In this document: positions 5,457-28,821 of the stretch, piece after piece
How positions within the stretch are numbered: position 1 is the stretch's first letter
Layout: each line of letters opens with the position of its first letter
Assembly (NCBI GenBank): GCA_021797525.1
Contig: JAJZZQ010000069.1
Location: 1 to 28,821 of the forward strand
Length of the DNA stretch: 28,821 nt
Origin: Thermoplasmata archaeon
Lineage (GTDB): Archaea; Thermoplasmatota; Thermoplasmata; Thermoplasmatales; Thermoplasmataceae
Direction of reading: 5' to 3'
The notes under the pieces: model-generated
Database searches by the model: none
Told to the model about the DNA's origin: nothing
What the model saw: only the letters and a program-made list of their open reading frames with translations
Translations under genes and position numbers: made by a program

Positions 5457-8342
5457 GTGAAGCATGCCTCATTGACAGTTGTTATTATTTCATCCATCTT
5501 GATAATCTCATCTGTAGGGGCTCTTTTACCGTATGGTATTAACCATGATATTAAATCAGTAAATGACACGAAGGGAAGTGCAAATCCTGAATATGATTCG
5601 CTGGGAAATGTTTCTCAGATGGGTTCAGTCTCATTTAGTTTTAATGGGCTTCCCTCCAATTCTACTATATCTTTAAATGTAGATGGACTTTCAGCAGTCA
5701 CAAATACAGGAAAACTGAAAATGACACTTCCCTATGGCAATTATTCTTATGCTGCCATGAACACTAATGGGTATGTTTCTCCTAACTGGACTGGAACCTT
5801 CAATCTCCACTCCACAGATTTGATAATCCCGGTTAACTACACAGGAATTCCTTTTCAGAGTGCAGGATTGGCTCTTAATAATGGCTCCCAATTCTCCATC
5901 TATTCATCAGCTGATTCTAACAACGCTACCCCTCTCGATTCTGTTTATGATAGTTTAAATGGTTTGACATATACTATTTCCTCTTTCCCGCAGGGATTCT
6001 ATATCACAGGAAATTCCTCTGTTACTTTTATAAAGACGTTGGGTGAACCTGAAGATATTACACTTATGAAGACAACAGGAAATCTTGCTATTGCAGAGAA
6101 TTCCTCGGTTTTTGTTTATAGCCCTAAAGGCACAGAAATTAATTCCATAAATGTGCCCTATCAGACCAACGCCATTATTTATGACAATTTCTCCAACACT
6201 CTCTGGCTTGGTACAGATTCTGGGATATATGTGCTAAATGCAACAACTCTTTCCACTCTCCACGAAATAGCAGGGATTAACATTCAGATTCCGGGACAAT
6301 TGGCTCTTGACAGGGACAACGGTTCAGTATTTGCACTTAATGTATCGTCAAATTTTTCTCAGAATCGTCTTATTATAATATCCGGTAATTATAAAATTAT
6401 AGCCGAGTACAGCCTTGGTTCTTTTGCAGGAGAGATTGCATTTTACCCTGAATTCAACCGTGTCTATGTTTCAACTGTTTCCCAGGAGCAAAATACTCTT
6501 TACTACCTTGAAAATGGAACTTTGAAACCTGTCTATGGTACAGGAGAGTCTTACTCTATAGGTTATCTGGGAGACTTGAATTCTGTCTATTATATCAATC
6601 AAGCAGGCAATATCTATCTTGTCAACCCTCTGAACAGTACTCTTGTAAAGGTAATGAACAGCAGTTCTATTCCTAATATATTAATAAACGGAGTTAACGG
6701 AACTTTCTCCATGATCTCAACACTTAATGGTGTTGTTACATACACAGGGCTCGGTGGAAAAGTTTACAATCTGACTTTCATTGAAAAAGGGCTATCTGGG
6801 GGGACAGCATGGTCTGTTACGCTTAATAATTTTACAGAAAAATCCAGTAATAGATATGTTACATTTTATGAAACCATAGGGTCATACACTGTCAATTTAA
6901 ACACCACATCTCTCTATTCCTATAACAAAAGCTTAAGCGTGAAGTTAAGCGGGCCAGAAAATGTAAGTCTAACATTCAAGAAGCTCTATTCTGTGGTGTT
7001 GAACTCTGTTGGAATGCCATCTGGCTCATATCTGAAAATATCCATTGGCAACACTCAGGTGAATACCTCTCTTAACCGCTATACGATTTATCTTGTAAAT
7101 GGAACTTATAACTATTCAGCCAGTACATCAGATGGCTTTTTTATAACCCCAAATAACGGCACAATAGTAATAAATGGTTATAACAGGACTGTCAACCTTA
7201 CCTGGTCAAAGGTAACATATTCAGTCTCAATCAATGAAGTTGGGCTTCCTGCTGGTACTCCGTGGTCAATATACATATCTGGAATAAAGTACAGTACGGA
7301 TAGGTCCCAAATAAGTCTCAACCTTTCAAATGGTACCTATACATTTTCATTGGGTTTAGTTCCCGGATATTTCAGCGAACATTATTCTCCCGAATTCAAT
7401 ATCTCAGGAGGTAATGTTTATATTCCTTTGAAATTCCAGGAAACAAAATTCAATCTTAGCTTCGAAATATTAAATTACAGCGGAAAATTTCCTTTAGTCT
7501 TTCAAATAGGTTCAGCAGTCATTTACGAAAATACTACTAATTTCTCAGAAATGGTACCAAATGGTTCTTACATGTACAGTATAATTTTCCCGGGAAATGT
7601 ATGGAAAAATATCAGTGGCATTGCACATATTTCTGATTCCAATTTGAAAATTATTCTGAATGCGAAAGAGCAGTTCTACTATCTTTCAGTACAGGAGATA
7701 GGTTTGCCTCCTGGAAGCGAATGGGGATTCAATCTTTCCGGTATTTCAGTATCAGGTAACTCGTCAACCCTAAGTGAAAGGGTTACCAATGGGACTTATA
7801 CCTTATATCCAGTGATGATTGGCGGTTATGAACCAATAATTCCCTTAGCAATTACAATTGATGGTTCTAATGAAACTGCAATTGTTGAATATGATCCTTT
7901 ACCTGTTCTCTATAATGTCACGTTCATCCAAATAGGGTTACCGCCTGGACTATCTCTTCAACTCACAGTGGGTAAAGTCACTCTTTCTTCCTCCGGCATC
8001 TCTCCGGCTGAATTTTACCTTGCAAACGGAACATATAATGTAACTGTAAATTATACATTTCCGCCAGGTCCGCCCTTACCACCATTACAGTTCCATCATG
8101 TTCCCTCAGTTCCAATTCCTGTTGGGGTTCAGAAAACATATTCCCAAACATTGCAGTTCTCTGTAAACGGAACAAATGAGTTTGTCTTCCTCCTGTTTGT
8201 CCAGGGTCAGATAGTTCTCTCATTTACAGTCCCTGTTCTCCCTCCGCCACTCCCCCCAGGGCCTGGACCATTCCCAGGGCCAACTGGGCCTAACCAATTT
8301 CCTGGAAATGGGCCTGTTGTATGGACAGTAGGAAGGCACTAG
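5457..8342 (+). CDS. Large secreted surface protein with propeller-like region and six beta modules
   Basis: A 961-aa protein with an N-terminal signal peptide (about 1-24, hydrophobic VVIISSILIISSVGALL). Residues about 130-430 look like a beta-propeller or YVTN/NHL-type region with repeated AIAENSSVFVYS- and VYVST-like strands. Next come six modules of about 75 aa starting near residues 437, 511, 588, 662 (degenerate), 742 and 819, with consensus Y-x-V-x-F-x-E-x-G-L-P-x-G-x-x-W and a later NGTY motif. The tail (about 925-961) is rich in Pro and Gly, with no C-terminal membrane helix. NxS/T sequons are very frequent, as expected for an archaeal S-layer-exposed glycoprotein. Similar G-L-P-x-G modules occur in thermopsin-type and other Thermoplasmata surface proteins. 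No protease motif is seen. A role in adhesion or surface binding is inferred. Confidence 0.8.
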   Translation: MKHASLTVVIISSILIISSVGALLPYGINHDIKSVNDTKGSANPEYDSLGNVSQMGSVSFSFNGLPSNSTISLNVDGLSAVTNTGKLKMTLPYGNYSYAAMNTNGYVSPNWTGTFNLHSTDLIIPVNYTGIPFQSAGLALNNGSQFSIYSSADSNNATPLDSVYDSLNGLTYTISSFPQGFYITGNSSVTFIKTLGEPEDITLMKTTGNLAIAENSSVFVYSPKGTEINSINVPYQTNAIIYDNFSNTLWLGTDSGIYVLNATTLSTLHEIAGINIQIPGQLALDRDNGSVFALNVSSNFSQNRLIIISGNYKIIAEYSLGSFAGEIAFYPEFNRVYVSTVSQEQNTLYYLENGTLKPVYGTGESYSIGYLGDLNSVYYINQAGNIYLVNPLNSTLVKVMNSSSIPNILINGVNGTFSMISTLNGVVTYTGLGGKVYNLTFIEKGLSGGTAWSVTLNNFTEKSSNRYVTFYETIGSYTVNLNTTSLYSYNKSLSVKLSGPENVSLTFKKLYSVVLNSVGMPSGSYLKISIGNTQVNTSLNRYTIYLVNGTYNYSASTSDGFFITPNNGTIVINGYNRTVNLTWSKVTYSVSINEVGLPAGTPWSIYISGIKYSTDRSQISLNLSNGTYTFSLGLVPGYFSEHYSPEFNISGGNVYIPLKFQETKFNLSFEILNYSGKFPLVFQIGSAVIYENTTNFSEMVPNGSYMYSIIFPGNVWKNISGIAHISDSNLKIILNAKEQFYYLSVQEIGLPPGSEWGFNLSGISVSGNSSTLSERVTNGTYTLYPVMIGGYEPIIPLAITIDGSNETAIVEYDPLPVLYNVTFIQIGLPPGLSLQLTVGKVTLSSSGISPAEFYLANGTYNVTVNYTFPPGPPLPPLQFHHVPSVPIPVGVQKTYSQTLQFSVNGTNEFVFLLFVQGQIVLSFTVPVLPPPLPPGPGPFPGPTGPNQFPGNGPVVWTVGRH

Positions 8343-22525: not shown

Positions 22526-23842
22526 ATGGACAGAGCCGTAATCAAGCTGCTCAGGAAAGCCAGAACCATGACCTTATCCACTACTGGAGTCAAAACATGG
22601 ACAACCAAGACTTTCTATGCTATGGATCACGGTTTTCTATTCTATATTGAAAAAGGCGGTCTCACTTTAAAGAACATTACAGAGAATCCGAACATAAGTT
22701 TTGCAATAGACGAGAATAAACTGAATCTTTTTGTTCAGGGCTCCGGGAGAGTTGAAATTTTGGGCGAACCGGATGATCTGCAGAGAGAGAGGGGGATATT
22801 ACTTCACAAGGTTCCTGCAGATGCTGCATTCTCTCATAGCGGGCACGTATTTCTTGCCAGGCTTGTCCCTGATGAAATACGGGTAATGGATATGCGTGTT
22901 GAAATGAAGAGATACAGTGCCGACGTAAATCTCGATGAAATGACAGAGCATTTCCAACCGATCTTTAGCCTTTTCAGGGTATGGTCATTTCAGCAGAGCA
23001 TAATTGCATTGATTATTGGTTCCATACTTGCTGTCAGGCTGAATTTAGTATTTCTGGTTCTTTCAGTTCTCGGTATTATGGCCGCCCATGGCGCTTTCAA
23101 TGCCATAAGCGGATACTTTGATTTCAGGACAGGGAACGATACGCCCAGATCCCTGACCAGTTCAAGAGTTTTTGTTGACAACCTTGTACATCCGAGGAAG
23201 GCCCTTGGAGTATCCTATCTACTGCTGGCGCTTGCTCTCGTAGATGGGGTATACCTGGCTATTTCCAGGCCACAGATTTGGCCATTTATCCTGATAGGCG
23301 TTGTAGCAGGTGCTCTATATAGTGCCCCAAAAATAGGGTTTAAAAAATATGCTCTGGGAGATGTTGCTGTCTTTGTTGCATGGTCACCCGGAATATTCCT
23401 TGGCGCTTATGTACTTCAGGGAGGAATAATAAACCTTCCAATACTTCTGATATCATTTTCAGTTGCCCTTCTAACGGTGAATATCCTGCATGGAAATAAC
23501 TGGAGAGACATGGACGACGACAGGAAAGTCGGGGTCAGAACAGTTGCAAATGTTCTTGGAGAAGAGGGATCAAAGATCTATTATTATGCACTCATTTGGT
23601 CTCCATATGCCCTTGTTGTCCTGGCATATTTCCTTGAGAGGCACCTATACCCGTTGTTTGCCGTAATGCTTACAGTTCCTCTGGCAATACAGCTTTCAAG
23701 AATTGCTGCAAACAGGAAGAACATAAAAAGGTCAATGCTGGATATGCTTACTGCAAGAGCAACTTTCTACTTCGGTCTTTTCGGGGTTATATCCTATCTT
23801 CTTGTTACCTATGCCTCAGGGGCACTTCATCTTGTAGTGTAG
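22526..23842 (+). CDS. Fusion of FMN-binding split-barrel (PNPOx-like) domain and UbiA prenyltransferase
   Basis: A 438-aa two-domain protein. Residues about 1-130 form a pyridoxamine-phosphate-oxidase-like split barrel (MTLSTTGVKTWTTKTFYAM, then GFLFYIEKGG, and VQGSGRVEILGEPDD). This fold usually binds FMN, F420 or heme. Residues about 150-438 form a UbiA domain of about nine helices, with NAISGYFDFRTGND (D199, D205) and NNWRDMDDDRKVGVRT (D328, D330-332), both strong Mg2+/diphosphate motifs. The fusion suggests that a redox step and prenylation act on the same quinone or lipid intermediate. TATATATC-like sequence (about 22493-22500) precedes ATG 22526. It starts a plus-strand group with the GtrA-like gene 12 bp downstream. 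Confidence 0.85.
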   Translation: MDRAVIKLLRKARTMTLSTTGVKTWTTKTFYAMDHGFLFYIEKGGLTLKNITENPNISFAIDENKLNLFVQGSGRVEILGEPDDLQRERGILLHKVPADAAFSHSGHVFLARLVPDEIRVMDMRVEMKRYSADVNLDEMTEHFQPIFSLFRVWSFQQSIIALIIGSILAVRLNLVFLVLSVLGIMAAHGAFNAISGYFDFRTGNDTPRSLTSSRVFVDNLVHPRKALGVSYLLLALALVDGVYLAISRPQIWPFILIGVVAGALYSAPKIGFKKYALGDVAVFVAWSPGIFLGAYVLQGGIINLPILLISFSVALLTVNILHGNNWRDMDDDRKVGVRTVANVLGEEGSKIYYYALIWSPYALVVLAYFLERHLYPLFAVMLTVPLAIQLSRIAANRKNIKRSMLDMLTARATFYFGLFGVISYLLVTYASGALHLVV

Positions 23843-24395: not shown

Positions 24396-24653
24396 ATGAC
24401 TGTCAGCAGTGAAAGTCTGGAGAATGCCTACGGGTTCAGAAAATACTTCTGGGGCAGAGTTATGGGGCTAGGTCTCCTCATCGTGGGCGTTGGGTTCTAT
24501 TTCGTCTGGTCGGTTCTTTATGGAACATGGGCAGATGTGGGGCTTTACTCATTCGTTGTGGTTGTAGTTATTTTTGGCCTTCTCGAACTTGCATTGGTTC
24601 AATCCAAAATTAAAGATGAGATCAGGGAAATTGAGAGATCTAAGAGGGCGTAA
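24396..24653 (+). CDS. Small two-helix membrane protein, unknown
   Basis: An 85-aa protein with two hydrophobic helices (about 23-42 and 48-67) and a charged C-terminal tail (SKIKDEIREIERSKRA) likely to be cytoplasmic. No family is recognised. It begins 61 bp after the GtrA-like gene on the same strand, with ATG 24396, and ends 4 bp before the stop of the convergent VirB4-like gene. Its composition and position support a real gene. Confidence 0.6.
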   Translation: MTVSSESLENAYGFRKYFWGRVMGLGLLIVGVGFYFVWSVLYGTWADVGLYSFVVVVVIFGLLELALVQSKIKDEIREIERSKRA

Positions 24654-24657
24654 GCCT

Positions 24658-26568
24658 TTATTCTTTAAATATCCTGAGCCTTCTGCAATATTTTCCATCG
24701 GAATAATAACACTCTGAGTATGGGTAACCTTTGCCTCCCAGGAGATTCTGAGGCTCCACCGCAGTGAATCCATCTATCTTGAGAGCGATATAGTCTCTTG
24801 TGGATATTTTTCTGGTTCTGAATATGAATATATGTGTGCTGTTCAATGCCAGGGAAGCATTCTCATACTTTGTCATGTCATCAGCATTCTGCGTAATGTT
24901 GAAAAGTATAGTATTGTAGTGGCGGCTATGCCTCACCATGCTCTCCAGGTATTTCCTGGATTCGTCATCGAAGATCGCGGTGTGCCCCTCTTCAATTATA
25001 ATGGCCTTTCTCCTGAGATCAGATGTCATGAGGCTGTAGAGTTTCATCATGCTCTCTCTTGCAAAAGCTCTGGCTGACATACCTCTATTACGCAATATTA
25101 AAATGTCAGCCGGGGAGATTGAATTAATGTTGCTGAAATCATACTCTTCCAGAGGATCATATACATAGAGGCAGTCAATTAGACTATTCTTTATCATTCT
25201 TCTTATAATGATTCCAGTGAAGAATGATTTGCCTGACCCGGTTTCCCCGATAACCATGAAATTATTCGCTGCTCCGTAAACAATAGGGAGGAAAACAGTT
25301 CTGCCATTGAGATCATCTATTCCGATCTCAATGTCCCCATATGTTTGAGAGCTGAAAGAAAGTGGCATAATGGTGGAGGCTGATGATGCACTCATCATGT
25401 ATTTTGGCTTTAAATGTTCAGAGAATGGAAAGATATTTCCAAGAGATGCGGCTGTTGGCTTTACAATTGAGAAGTCCAGGCCAAGATAGTTCAGGGATCT
25501 CCGATATGTTCTCTCATAATCAGTAAGATGAACGGGATGGGAGCCTATAAGGGTAAGATTAAGGGATGTTCTGAGAATTGAATCCCTATCCTTCTTGAGG
25601 CCCTCCTCCATTGAGTTGATGGTTTCTATTTGCTGGCTGATGCCTGTCCCATGCTCTTTTATGGAATCTCCCGAAATGCGTATCTGAGCCTTTCTGTCTG
25701 CTCTGGCAGATTTTAACAATCTCAAAGCTGATTCATCCTGTATTCTGTGGACTGAAAACCTTGTGATAGTGCCTATACCGGAACCTTCTAGAAATGCATA
25801 TAAAAGTGGTCCCCCGTCATAATCAGAGTCTCTTAGTTCAAGCATTATGAAATTTCTGTCTCCGCTGATGAAATTCCTTCTCAGATGCATTACAGGATCG
25901 ATTTTTGAATTTTTGGATGAGCTGGAATAGAAAACACTATTATACAGATTCTCCAAATCTGATATTTGCGGAATGGTAAAATTAAAATTCAGAGATGAAA
26001 GGCCTTCAAGGAATTTTACTGAACCTTCTGCCAGATTTGCTGCTGTTTTCTGTTGAGATCCAGTTGCTGATGAAAATACAGCAAGAATATGGGTTTCTCC
26101 ATACCCCTCTTCTTCGATTCCGGTGTAAGCAAAAAAATCAAAGTTAACTGAAATGTCCGAGAGAAGCCTCCTGAGGCCGTTAAGGATGTTTCTCTGTTCA
26201 CTTTCCCTTGCCTCAGGGAGCATTCTCGGCTCCAGGAATGCGATGAATCTTAATTTCCCAGATACTCTGAATATGCCTTCAGGGTCTGATTCCTCGCGGG
26301 TTAAACTGAACTCTGGAACAAATTTCCGCCCTCCAGCAGGAGGCATCAGCTTTGTGAACAACTTGACTATTCTGGTCTTTCCAGTAATCTCTATAAATAT
26401 TCCCGCAACACTGATTGCTGCGATGAATACTGAGAACAGTGTGTTAATCTCCAGTGTAAAGACTGTTATCAAAGATAAGGAGATTATGAGAAGCAACGTC
26501 CTGTACCTGAGGCCGAACATTGTGGGGGTGAAGATATCTATATTAGGTGGGACCTTTCTATATCGCAT
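24658..26568 (-). CDS. VirB4/CedB-like ATPase with VirB3/PrgI-like N-terminal membrane part
   Basis: A 636-aa protein. Residues about 1-70 begin RYRKVPPNIDIFTP and contain two membrane helices (about 22-40 and 44-62), as in PrgI/VirB3 subunits. A middle domain of about 350 residues follows, as in VirB4. The C-terminal HerA/FtsK-like ATPase has Walker A GETGSGKS at 441-448, Walker B AIIIEEGH at 522-529 (Glu-Glu at 526-527) and a sensor-like NITQNADDM segment. VirB4 enzymes power type IV secretion; CedB is the archaeal relative used to import DNA. ATG 26568 lies one base after the stop of the VirB6-like gene (TGA-A-ATG), so translation is coupled. No relaxase or VirD4 gene is nearby. Confidence 0.8.
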   Translation of the reverse strand: MRYRKVPPNIDIFTPTMFGLRYRTLLLIISLSLITVFTLEINTLFSVFIAAISVAGIFIEITGKTRIVKLFTKLMPPAGGRKFVPEFSLTREESDPEGIFRVSGKLRFIAFLEPRMLPEARESEQRNILNGLRRLLSDISVNFDFFAYTGIEEEGYGETHILAVFSSATGSQQKTAANLAEGSVKFLEGLSSLNFNFTIPQISDLENLYNSVFYSSSSKNSKIDPVMHLRRNFISGDRNFIMLELRDSDYDGGPLLYAFLEGSGIGTITRFSVHRIQDESALRLLKSARADRKAQIRISGDSIKEHGTGISQQIETINSMEEGLKKDRDSILRTSLNLTLIGSHPVHLTDYERTYRRSLNYLGLDFSIVKPTAASLGNIFPFSEHLKPKYMMSASSASTIMPLSFSSQTYGDIEIGIDDLNGRTVFLPIVYGAANNFMVIGETGSGKSFFTGIIIRRMIKNSLIDCLYVYDPLEEYDFSNINSISPADILILRNRGMSARAFARESMMKLYSLMTSDLRRKAIIIEEGHTAIFDDESRKYLESMVRHSRHYNTILFNITQNADDMTKYENASLALNSTHIFIFRTRKISTRDYIALKIDGFTAVEPQNLLGGKGYPYSECYYSDGKYCRRLRIFKE

Positions 26569-26569
26569 T

Positions 26570-27544
26570 TCAATCAGGATATCTTCTCCATTTCAACTCA
26601 TCCTGGATTGCTTCACTGTAAGGGTCTTTCCTGGATGGGACCTGACTTGCTTGCCTGTATCCTGAATTGCCCGATGGGACCTGAATCATTCTAAGGAGGC
26701 CATCCTGCAGATTCCCGGATCCAAGTTCAACTGCTGATCTGGCATATCCGGTAATGCTTCCTGCAATTGCACCTGCAGAAAATCCTCCAAGCATATTGAG
26801 AAGAGGAGTTGTGCCCGGTCCTCTCCCACTGAAAAATAGGTAGCCTGGAAGCAGGGATGGAATGAGTATCAGTGCTATCTGCAAAGGCGCTACATAGCTG
26901 AATAACTCAGAAAGGTATATAGAAAGAAGTGCTAGGAATGGAAAGATGGAAAATTCAATGAATATTTCCCAGAGCACTTTTGCGTATCTCCTCAGATAAC
27001 CTATGCCTGAGAGTACCGTGAATACCGGGAGCAGCGGGATTATGAGCAGAATCATCCCTTCCCTTACCATAAGTGTGGCAAGGAGAACTGCGCATGAACC
27101 GAAATAAGCACTTAACATGATGAATTGAAAAATGCTGTTTACACCTGAATCAATTCCTGTGATCCCTGTTCCTGGAAGGGGAATAAGGCGCTGCTTATCC
27201 ACATTGAGATGGTTCCACATTATGGCATAAAGATGCTGCATTCCATTCAGGAATGAGAGGGAGATGTATACTGATGTGAGAGATACCAGAATGAGTATTG
27301 CGCACTTGATAAACCAAGCTACCGGTCGCAGATCCGGCTCAAGGCTGTTTTTGAATAGAAATGCAAGAGCAGAGACAGCTATGGAAAGGCTGATCAGGTA
27401 AGGAGAAATCGTGTTGGCAGCAACTATTATTGCATTATAGCTGCCGGAAGAGGTAAATGAAGTGACATAAGCATAATCAGGAGCAAGACCGATCCTCAGG
27501 GTGTAAGTCCAAAGAAACTGAACAAGTTCAGAGTATGGGAGCAA
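26570..27544 (-). CDS. VirB6/TrbL/CedA-like polytopic membrane protein
   Basis: A 324-aa protein with about six or seven membrane helices (near 45-63, 75-97, 138-160, 165-187, 198-218, 222-240) and a Gly/Ala-rich segment (GGFSAGAIAGSITG, about 253-267). The C-terminal tail is polar and probably cytoplasmic. Topology, size and position between a VirB2-like and a VirB4-like gene match VirB6/CedA, the inner-membrane channel of type IV machines; sequence motifs alone would not prove it. The only canonical start is TTG 27542-27544, and the frame stays open and hydrophobic upstream (27545-27603), so the true start may differ. Confidence 0.68.
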   Translation of the reverse strand: MLPYSELVQFLWTYTLRIGLAPDYAYVTSFTSSGSYNAIIVAANTISPYLISLSIAVSALAFLFKNSLEPDLRPVAWFIKCAILILVSLTSVYISLSFLNGMQHLYAIMWNHLNVDKQRLIPLPGTGITGIDSGVNSIFQFIMLSAYFGSCAVLLATLMVREGMILLIIPLLPVFTVLSGIGYLRRYAKVLWEIFIEFSIFPFLALLSIYLSELFSYVAPLQIALILIPSLLPGYLFFSGRGPGTTPLLNMLGGFSAGAIAGSITGYARSAVELGSGNLQDGLLRMIQVPSGNSGYRQASQVPSRKDPYSEAIQDELKWRRYPD

Positions 27545-27603
27545 AACAGCTTTCAGAATCTCCGAAAGCGAACCAAGCAGATATCCAGAAACAGACAGAA
27601 TTA

Positions 27604-27885
27604 TCAGCTTCCAAAGGCAATGTATTTGAATATTGTGTAAACAACACCGCTAAGTGCAAGGGCATAGATGAAAGTGCCTATAATTGCATTCCTCAATCTC
27701 ACATGGGCCTCCACCCTTCTGCTCTCATCGTTCCCAAAAAAACTGAGGGCCACAGGAATCCAAAGGACAAGCATCAAAACAGCCGACACCGAGATAAGGA
27801 TATCATCTATCCTTCCTGTGATCTGTTGGATTTGAGTTGATATTGACAATATGCCCGTATGCGTCATTAATACATGTTTTAGCAT
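27604..27885 (-). CDS. VirB2/CedA1-like two-helix protein, possible DNA-transfer pilin
   Basis: A 93-aa protein with two hydrophobic helices (about 32-50 and 68-88) joined by a short charged loop (NDESRRVEAHVRLRN). This is the hairpin form of VirB2 and of CedA1, which build conjugation-type or DNA-import pili. It lacks the long signal peptide of bacterial VirB2, as do archaeal CedA1 proteins. It is the first gene of the operon. ATG 27883-27885 has ATATAATTTATA about 25-28 bp upstream, fitting leaderless expression; Met 7 is an alternative start. The assignment rests on topology and neighbours. Confidence 0.65.
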   Translation of the reverse strand: MLKHVLMTHTGILSISTQIQQITGRIDDILISVSAVLMLVLWIPVALSFFGNDESRRVEAHVRLRNAIIGTFIYALALSGVVYTIFKYIAFGS

Positions 27886-27907: not shown

Positions 27908-27920
27908 GTATAAATTATAT
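27908..27920 (-). promoter_or_regulatory. TATA-like promoter element of the T4SS-like operon
   Basis: The minus strand reads ATATAATTTATAC here, centred about 28 bp before the ATG at 27885. The element overlaps the last codons of the upstream thioesterase gene (ends 27915), so the operon has its own promoter despite tight packing. Confidence 0.5.
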
Positions 27921-28409
27921 TTGTGGGTGAACCCTGCTTTTAACTTCCTCAAGTGCTTTCAGTCTCTGCTGACTTCTTTGCTCGCCCTGTTTGAAGCGCT
28001 CTCGTTCTTCGTCAGTCTCGAGTTTAAGTTGAGGCACTTCAATTGCTTTTCCATCCTGGTTTATTGCCACGTAGGTCAGAAAACAGGTTGTGGTAAAGCT
28101 CCTGTCTCCTGTAATGGCATTTTCTGAATAAACATCAACTTCGATCTCCATTGTCTTATTGGTTACATAATTTATTCTGCCGTAAAGAGAAACTATGTCT
28201 CCCAGATGTATCGGTGAAAGGAAAAACAGCCTGTCGATGCTGCCAGTGACAGTTCTTCTTCTACAATGCTTTGCTGCCACTATGGCTGCCACATTATCAA
28301 TCCATTCAACCAGCCTCCCTCCATAGAGATCATTGTAAATGTTGGTGTCTGGTGGCAGCACCAGGCGCTGCAGTTCTGTCTGGGATTCCTTCCAGTGTTT
28401 TGCATCCAT
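27915..28409 (-). CDS. Acyl-CoA thioesterase, hotdog fold (YciA/BACH family)
   Basis: A 164-aa soluble hotdog-fold enzyme. Signature parts are NDLYGGRLVEWIDNVAAIVAAKHC, with the G-G-x-L and W-x-D pattern around the catalytic region, and GSIDRLFFLSPIHLGDIVSLYGRI. VYSENAITGDRSFTTTCFLTYVAI also fits the acyl-CoA thioester hydrolase family. It releases CoA from fatty or branched acyl-CoA. The C-terminal 30 residues form a charged helix (ERERFKQGEQRSQQRLKALE). The start is ATG 28407-28409. It is divergent from rpiA. Confidence 0.88.
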   Translation of the reverse strand: MDAKHWKESQTELQRLVLPPDTNIYNDLYGGRLVEWIDNVAAIVAAKHCRRRTVTGSIDRLFFLSPIHLGDIVSLYGRINYVTNKTMEIEVDVYSENAITGDRSFTTTCFLTYVAINQDGKAIEVPQLKLETDEERERFKQGEQRSQQRLKALEEVKSRVHPQI

Positions 28410-28485
28410 ATATGGATATTGGAAGTATCATCAAATAAACTTCTCTTTGGAAATATGCTTTATAGTCTTATGCATAAGGAAAGTG

Positions 28486-28821
28486 ATGAATTTGGAAACG
28501 CTGGAGTCTGAGAAAAAAAGTGCGGCCCTTGCTTCTATCAAATTTGTAAGAGATGGAATGCTCCTCGGATTGGGTACAGGCTCCACTGTTAAATTTCTAA
28601 TAGAGGAACTTGGAAATATTATCAAGGAAAAGGGTTGGCACATTTCCTGTGTTCCTACCTCCAGGTCATCAGAAAAGCTTGCTAGAGAGAAGGGGATTGA
28701 AATAGTTGAAAATCCGGGCAGAAAACTGGATCTTGATATAGACGGAGCTGATGAGGCTGATTCATATGGCAATCTGATAAAGGGTGGCGGTGGTGCCTTA
28801 ACCAGGGAAAAGATTGTCGCA
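28486..28821 (+). CDS. rpiA: Ribose-5-phosphate isomerase A (partial, cut by window end)
   Basis: 112 codons of the N-terminal part are visible. Diagnostic elements are GLGTGSTVKFLIEELG (the phosphate-binding loop), the segment VPTSRSSEKLA, and LDIDGADEADSYGNLIKGGGGALTREKIVA with the catalytic acidic residues and Lys. The enzyme interconverts ribose 5-phosphate and ribulose 5-phosphate for nucleotide and pentose metabolism. I chose ATG 28486 because TTTATAG (about 28460-28466) lies about 24 bp upstream; GTG 28483 is directly before it in frame. Confidence 0.93.
   Translation, partial: MNLETLESEKKSAALASIKFVRDGMLLGLGTGSTVKFLIEELGNIIKEKGWHISCVPTSRSSEKLAREKGIEIVENPGRKLDLDIDGADEADSYGNLIKGGGGALTREKIVA

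Follow-up and report, generated by a model that had tools for sequence, protein, structure and literature searches.

Contig JAJZZQ010000069.1 of a Thermoplasmata archaeon (NCBI GenBank assembly GCA_021797525.1), analyzed here as a stretch of 28,821 nucleotides (nt; hereafter, the window), carries three consecutive genes for a VirB2-like pilin, a VirB6-like polytopic membrane protein and a VirB4-like ATPase, which together probably constitute a domesticated minimal type IV secretion system (T4SS) of Thermoplasmata that moves DNA between cells. All three open reading frames (ORFs) are on the minus strand, at positions 27604-27885 (pilin), 26570-27544 (VirB6-like protein, with a TTG start) and 24658-26568 (ATPase), and a single nucleotide, base 26569, separates the last two genes. 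An earlier reading of the same DNA (the original prediction), made from the sequence alone, had described this cluster with its helix patterns, Walker motif and 1-nt gap, and all these features were confirmed. The VirB6-like gene probably starts farther upstream, at a CTG at 27607, 21 codons before the TTG at 27544, so that it would span 26570-27607 and encode 345 rather than 324 amino acids (aa). We favor this start because the tetranucleotide CTGA at 27607, in which the proposed start overlaps the pilin stop, recurs in the related loci L001 (position 1235) and L002, because in 27 of 33 relatives the gene begins within a stretch reaching from 4 nt ahead of the pilin stop to 12 nt past it, and because the 21 additional N-terminal residues are modelled as a confident helix. 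By eye, an in-frame CTG near the pilin stop is also available in L012, L030 and L032. Upstream of the pilin gene, a TATA-like box on the minus strand (TTTATA, 27909-27914), 24-29 nt before the ATG, is placed as in a leaderless archaeal promoter. Among the window and 33 loci, a set of 34 sequences that includes close relatives, TTTAWW was found at -38 to -22 in 24, compared with 2 of 34 in a control interval, which makes the single operon promoter assumed in the original prediction plausible.

The ATPase (636 aa) scored above the cut-offs of the Pfam families P-loop_TraG, AAA_10 and DUF87, and matched the NCBIfam model of F-type TraC at 7.1e-11, which is under the curated cut-off of that model. 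When a profile of the ATPase was compared with PDB, the best match was the VirB4-like structure 4ag5 (1.2e-10), followed by the next one at 2.9e-5, and the best matches of five related ATPases were all VirB4-family models (5.2e-16 to 6.7e-62). The Walker A motif GETGSGKS (residues 441-448; 25225-25248, minus strand) is invariant across an alignment of 19 sequences. Judging from these matches, the protein is the VirB4 ATPase of a minimal T4SS, although it stays under the equivalog cut-offs of single NCBIfam models. We rejected an assignment to HerA/DUF87 repair helicases on two grounds: the protein scores better with VirB4 models and structures, and Ferroplasma encodes a separate HerA which, as an internal control, matched the HerA model at 1.2e-69. 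In Pfam, the window ATPase matched DUF87 but neither HAS-barrel nor HerA_C.

Hydropathy places a two-helix membrane hairpin near the N-terminus of the ATPase (residues about 25-59; 26392-26496, minus strand), the position at which some conjugative VirB4 proteins carry a fused VirB3; Pfam gave no match of the window ATPase to the VirB3 family. In 13 of 34 loci (for example, L012, 9244-11347), the ATPase is split into two genes; the end of the first part maps to window residue 213-215 in 10 cases and to 244-289 in the other three. The first product (about 230-280 aa) has the membrane hairpin, and the second one is the soluble motor. This two-gene ATPase recalls CedB and CedD of the Ced system of Sulfolobales and relatives, which, according to one report, correspond to different portions of the N-terminal domain of VirB4 (PMC11868833).

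The pilin (93 aa) contains two hydrophobic stretches in a hydropathy scan, modelled as two long helices (residues 2-49 and 54-91). Its score against the Pfam model T4SS_pilin (PF18895) is 23.2 bits, under the cut-off of 26.6, and 31 of the 32 aligned members of the pilin family match the same model at E<=0.01, the best at 3.4e-7; a sequence search yielded 13 homologues. By these family matches, the protein is a VirB2-type pilin, as expected of a minimal T4SS. The fold did not help with the assignment because two helices fail to discriminate, and the top matches of the pilin profile in PDB, potassium channels at E 0.39, were discarded as chance. No signal peptide was seen by eye, without a predictor run, in the window pilin or in the other pilins of the main lineage. 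ORF clustering joined a 237-aa protein of L025 to the pilins, a link that we take to be false: this protein matches folE2, and in L022, the pilin shares one frame with a longer ORF upstream.

The VirB6-like protein displays five to six hydrophobic stretches in a hydropathy scan, and its profile found no match among PDB sequences; the top three entries for this protein, all of them VirB6 of R388, identify it as the VirB6 polytopic channel of a minimal T4SS. The pilin and VirB6-like families did not match each other in a profile-profile comparison (probability 0.8 out of 100); homology between the two has been reported for Ced.

In a second lineage, which includes Aciduliprofundum boonei, the pilins are longer owing to additional sequence at the N-terminus. 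In an A. boonei locus (L088, 5557-13927), five pilin-domain ORFs (160-405 aa) lie beside one VirB6-like gene and the gene of a 744-aa Ig-domain surface protein, and this type of cluster possibly represents pilin-adhesin variants. An ORF of 1,770-1,850 aa was observed upstream in L043, L045, L091 and L094.

The three genes travel as one set. A profile search with the ATPase, performed as an alignment-based scan of genome contigs, identified 46 loci, whereas the single-sequence scan had found no relative. All these loci come from records named as Thermoplasmatota or its members except L020 ("Uncultured archaeon clone ASS_A1"), and the carriers include Ferroplasma acidarmanus Fer1 (L041), a Thermoplasma and a Cuniculiplasma. 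In a count recomputed with profiles, which left out the distant relatives L043-L046, the ATPase gene is immediately preceded by the pilin and VirB6-like genes in 39 of 42 loci (L001-L042); in the remaining three, the contig ends at that point. The synteny check proposed with the original prediction gave a conserved three-gene order, and adjacency was seen again in 31 of 31 loci (L047-L077) that partly overlap the first set. Gene sets were compared in 34 of the 46 loci, after removal of L013 (identical to L012), of L017, L028, L029, L031, L034, L036 and L042 (contig-end cuts or duplicates of a kind) and of L043-L046. Across 400 genomes of the class to which the Ferroplasma genome belongs, where co-presence in the genome was counted and adjacency was checked in the loci only, the pilin profile matched 151 genomes (69 at E<=1.4e-30) and the VirB6 profile 163: both occur in 150 genomes, the pilin alone in 1, VirB6 alone in 13 and neither in 236. 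The pilin is single-copy in all 16 locus genomes; some class genomes contain extra copies of the pilin (G029, 5; G364, 3; G213, 2) or of the VirB6-like gene (3 each in G216, G255 and G278). Between the window and L001, the ratio of nonsynonymous to synonymous substitutions (dN/dS) is 0.028 for the pilin, 0.124 for the VirB6-like protein and 0.110 for the ATPase. With order and sequence so conserved, and with dN/dS at 0.03-0.12, the gene set goes beyond chance.

The flanks of the operon consist largely of housekeeping genes. In the window, the pilin gene is preceded by a hotdog thioesterase gene (27915-28409, minus strand; Pfam 4HBT, 2.8e-17) and by rpiA (28459-28821, plus strand, cut by the window end; Rib_5-P_isom_A, 5.5e-18), and the ATPase gene converges with a gene for an 85-aa two-helix membrane protein (24396-24653, plus strand) that has no Pfam family above cut-off. 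Among 47 loci, the window included, the recurrent neighbors are the thioesterase (31), rpiA (29), the 85-aa protein (27), TRM1 (23) and PurL (18); the thioesterase gene ends less than 300 nt before the pilin gene in 21 of 39 loci, and 22 of 39 have a divergent rpiA no more than 2.5 kb upstream. In L010, Pfam identified an AsnC regulator, UPF0147, a MarR-like protein and rpiA before the operon, and dihydroneopterin aldolase, an NTPase, TRM1, UbiA, PcrB and PurL after it. The window, L001 and L002 keep the common upstream side and have a downstream set of their own, comprising the 85-aa protein, a GtrA-like protein, two UbiA-type proteins, an MFS protein and a Cdc48-type ATPase. In the Ferroplasma group (L035, L037, L038, L040 and L041), the operon occupies a different but likewise fixed place, where the pilin gene follows genes for a D12 adenine DNA methyltransferase and a DUF72 protein, identified by Pfam in L041 (6507-8136) and belonging to the same clusters in the other four loci; in Cuniculiplasma-like loci, the thioesterase and rpiA genes lie downstream instead. 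The window also contains a gene for a pyridoxamine-phosphate-oxidase-like domain fused to a UbiA prenyltransferase (22526-23842) and an ORF of 961 aa (5457-8342) with no Pfam family at E<=1e-4.

In 15 Mantel tests (r 0.64-0.86, n 14-26), the distances in the three proteins correlated with those in five housekeeping proteins encoded in the flanks, a pattern that fits vertical descent but also allows block transfer. Searches of mobile elements were negative: tblastn against plasmids gave no match for the ATPase or the pilin, tblastn against phages gave none for the pilin, and the ATPase profile found no contig in IMG/VR. Given the position of the thioesterase gene, the housekeeping flanks, the Mantel tracking, the low dN/dS values and these negative searches, the locus is a chromosomal resident under purifying selection. 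This agrees with the original prediction of a resident locus, as does the single pilin copy.

The hallmarks of conjugative elements are sparse. Searches with three relaxase families (PF03432, PF08751 and PF03389), other families being outside the search, found none in any of 20 related genomes; each model found a relaxase in 1 of 14 control genomes. The missing relaxase of the original prediction thus extends, for these families, to all 20 genomes. The VirD4 model PF02534 touched 16 of the 20, but 15 of these matches are short, within positions 26-126 of the 468-position profile, and the two that were checked by Pfam (L105 and L108) turned out to be HerA, in one case encoded within a nurA-herA-mre11-rad50 operon. 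The one long match is a true VirD4/TrwB-type coupling protein of A. boonei (G029; L106, 6669-8477), encoded about 40 kb from the T4SS locus. It may belong to the integrative conjugative element (ICE) of this archaeon reported in 2011. No other T4SS genes were recognized among the scanned flanking genes.

The original prediction had assigned the operon to the Ced type, and this label did not hold: the window ATPase scores 9.6 bits against the CedB model NF041017 (cut-off 700), and the ATPases best fit the VirB4 families of conjugative systems. In a search of genomes, the CedB model gave weak matches, above the cut-off in 0 of 4 genomes; in the control set, it matched 5 of 14 genomes, including Sulfolobus acidocaldarius, and exceeded the cut-off in 1. 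The parts themselves, of VirB2, VirB6 and VirB4 type, were borne out. As outcomes that would speak against it, the original prediction had named an ATPase grouping with HerA, no kinship with VirB2 or VirB6 and an occurrence only beside relaxase genes; the opposite was found on every point.

Ced, which consists of CedA, CedA1, CedA2, CedB and CedD, shares with the Thermoplasmata operon a VirB6-like channel, a two-helix pilin, a motor ATPase, a resident locus and the lack of a dedicated relaxosome; the Ced pilin of Aeropyrum is reported not to be processed (PMC9905601, PMC11868833). The Thermoplasmata system differs in having a VirB4-type ATPase rather than CedB, and no separate CedA2-like gene was seen. 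The Ted system of Thermoproteales (TedA, TedB and TedC) is described as having the same three part types, a chromosomal locus, a VirB4-type ATPase and, again, no dedicated relaxosome (PMC9905601). It belongs to a different phylum, however, and TedC is cut by signal peptidase, unlike the main-lineage pilins as seen by eye. Furthermore, genes for ParA/MinD, HerA and Rad50 are described as common in the Ted locus (PMC9905601), whereas none was recognized beside the operon in the flanks of L010 and the window, and in Ferroplasma, the HerA-NurA-Mre11-Rad50 genes lie away from it. Conjugation systems of the VirB4 class (F-type TraC; CD1110 and Mbov_0397 of monoderms) provide the best NCBIfam matches of the ATPases and share PF18895 and the VirB6 fold; nevertheless, the ATPases fall far under the curated cut-offs of these models, the three relaxase families are missing and the locus is fixed in the chromosome. 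By its parts, then, the system is a T4SS and not a member of Ced, and by analogy, it would work like Ced and Ted.

Parts of the operon have surfaced in the literature. Golyshina et al. (2016) listed CSP5_1185-1189 and CPM_1190-93 of Cuniculiplasma as type IV secretion components, including VirB4 (arCOG04034), a multipass protein (arCOG05369) and membrane proteins, one of them conserved in Thermoplasmatales only (PMC5155288); most likely, these genes are the Cuniculiplasma copy of the operon. In the open-access literature searched, no other paper carried these arCOG numbers. The passages of that account dealing with these genes do not recognize a pilin with VirB6, or Ced/Ted-like exchange, and do not describe the wide conservation. 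A survey from 2011 reported many archaeal VirB4 homologues, often with a coupling ATPase, and a single ICE, in A. boonei (PMC3158045). Among the open-access papers listed by our searches, some of which gave only the best matches, and leaving subscription papers and preprints aside, we recognized no description of the locus as Ced/Ted-like outside Crenarchaeota. The original prediction had called a euryarchaeal version "new or little described"; as far as these reports go, "little described" stands and "new" has to be qualified.

In the mechanism that we propose, the pilin would build a thin conjugative pilus with the VirB6 pore as its anchor, and a VirB4 ring would be docked to this pore by its own N-terminal hairpin, which would do the job of VirB3. 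The task of the machine, like that attributed to Ced and Ted, would be to move DNA, probably single-stranded, between neighboring cells and so to supply homologous recombination. Since there is no relaxase of the families searched and, in most genomes examined, no recognized VirD4, the DNA moved would be that of the chromosome, made ready by enzymes of the cell such as HerA-NurA-Mre11-Rad50. We regard import as likelier than export solely on the analogy with Ced. The pilus, DNA as the substrate and the direction of its movement are what we infer from the parts and their relatives.

The main rival to this interpretation is that the T4SS was domesticated as an adhesive or contact pilus, or as a device that sends proteins into neighbors, for example, partner or episymbiotic cells, and moves no DNA. 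We consider this possible but unlikely. It would account for the missing relaxases and for a genuine VirD4 in 1 of 20 genomes so far as checked, and the pilins of Aciduliprofundum adjoining an Ig-domain surface protein suggest adhesion; in Patescibacteria, moreover, epibiotic growth depends on parts of a T4SS that was searched for with the same pilin model of Pfam (PMC12102498). However, the nearest archaeal functional precedents with these three part types move DNA (PMC9905601, PMC11868833). As for protein transfer, no effector was recognized, none having been searched for by function, and in the main lineage, the gene of the 85-aa membrane protein is the one small gene without a known role to stay in position.

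Uptake of free DNA, that is, natural transformation, by a T4SS-derived machine would follow the same minimal logic of ATPase, pore and pilin, and would suit flanks in which no donor-side DNA-processing parts were seen. ComB of Helicobacter is such a machine. Free DNA, however, depurinates at the pH of the habitats of these acidophiles, and no competence gene was recognized among the scanned flanks of L010 and the window, so that we regard this explanation as highly improbable. The least probable reading, in our assessment, is that the operon is the transfer module of an ICE or its decayed remnant. The VirB4 type is that of conjugative elements, an ICE has been called in A. boonei (PMC3158045), where the true VirD4 lies some 40 kb from the T4SS copy, and some class genomes have additional pilin or VirB6-like copies. 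Against an ICE stand the housekeeping neighbors, a pilin gene that occurs once in each of the 16 locus genomes, purifying selection, the missing relaxases of three families and the negative plasmid, phage and IMG/VR searches.

A domesticated T4SS that transfers DNA between cells would have implications beyond the window. According to one report, domesticated conjugation machines for DNA transfer were, to its authors' knowledge in 2023, unreported outside the studied hyperthermophilic archaea (PMC9905601); a compact version fixed in many Thermoplasmata chromosomes would imply repeated or older domestication. We give even odds to a bolder reading, in which Thermoplasmata possess a third archaeal machine for DNA exchange, shaped independently and domesticated long ago. 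This mating apparatus of three genes, its VirB4 often naturally split, would be passed on vertically and would be the agent of the high recombination in Ferroplasma. Ferroplasma populations recombine strongly (PMC2704941), and the Fer1 and Fer2 genomes have been reported to be without pili genes (PMC3750248). The operon in F. acidarmanus Fer1 is a candidate mechanism for this recombination.

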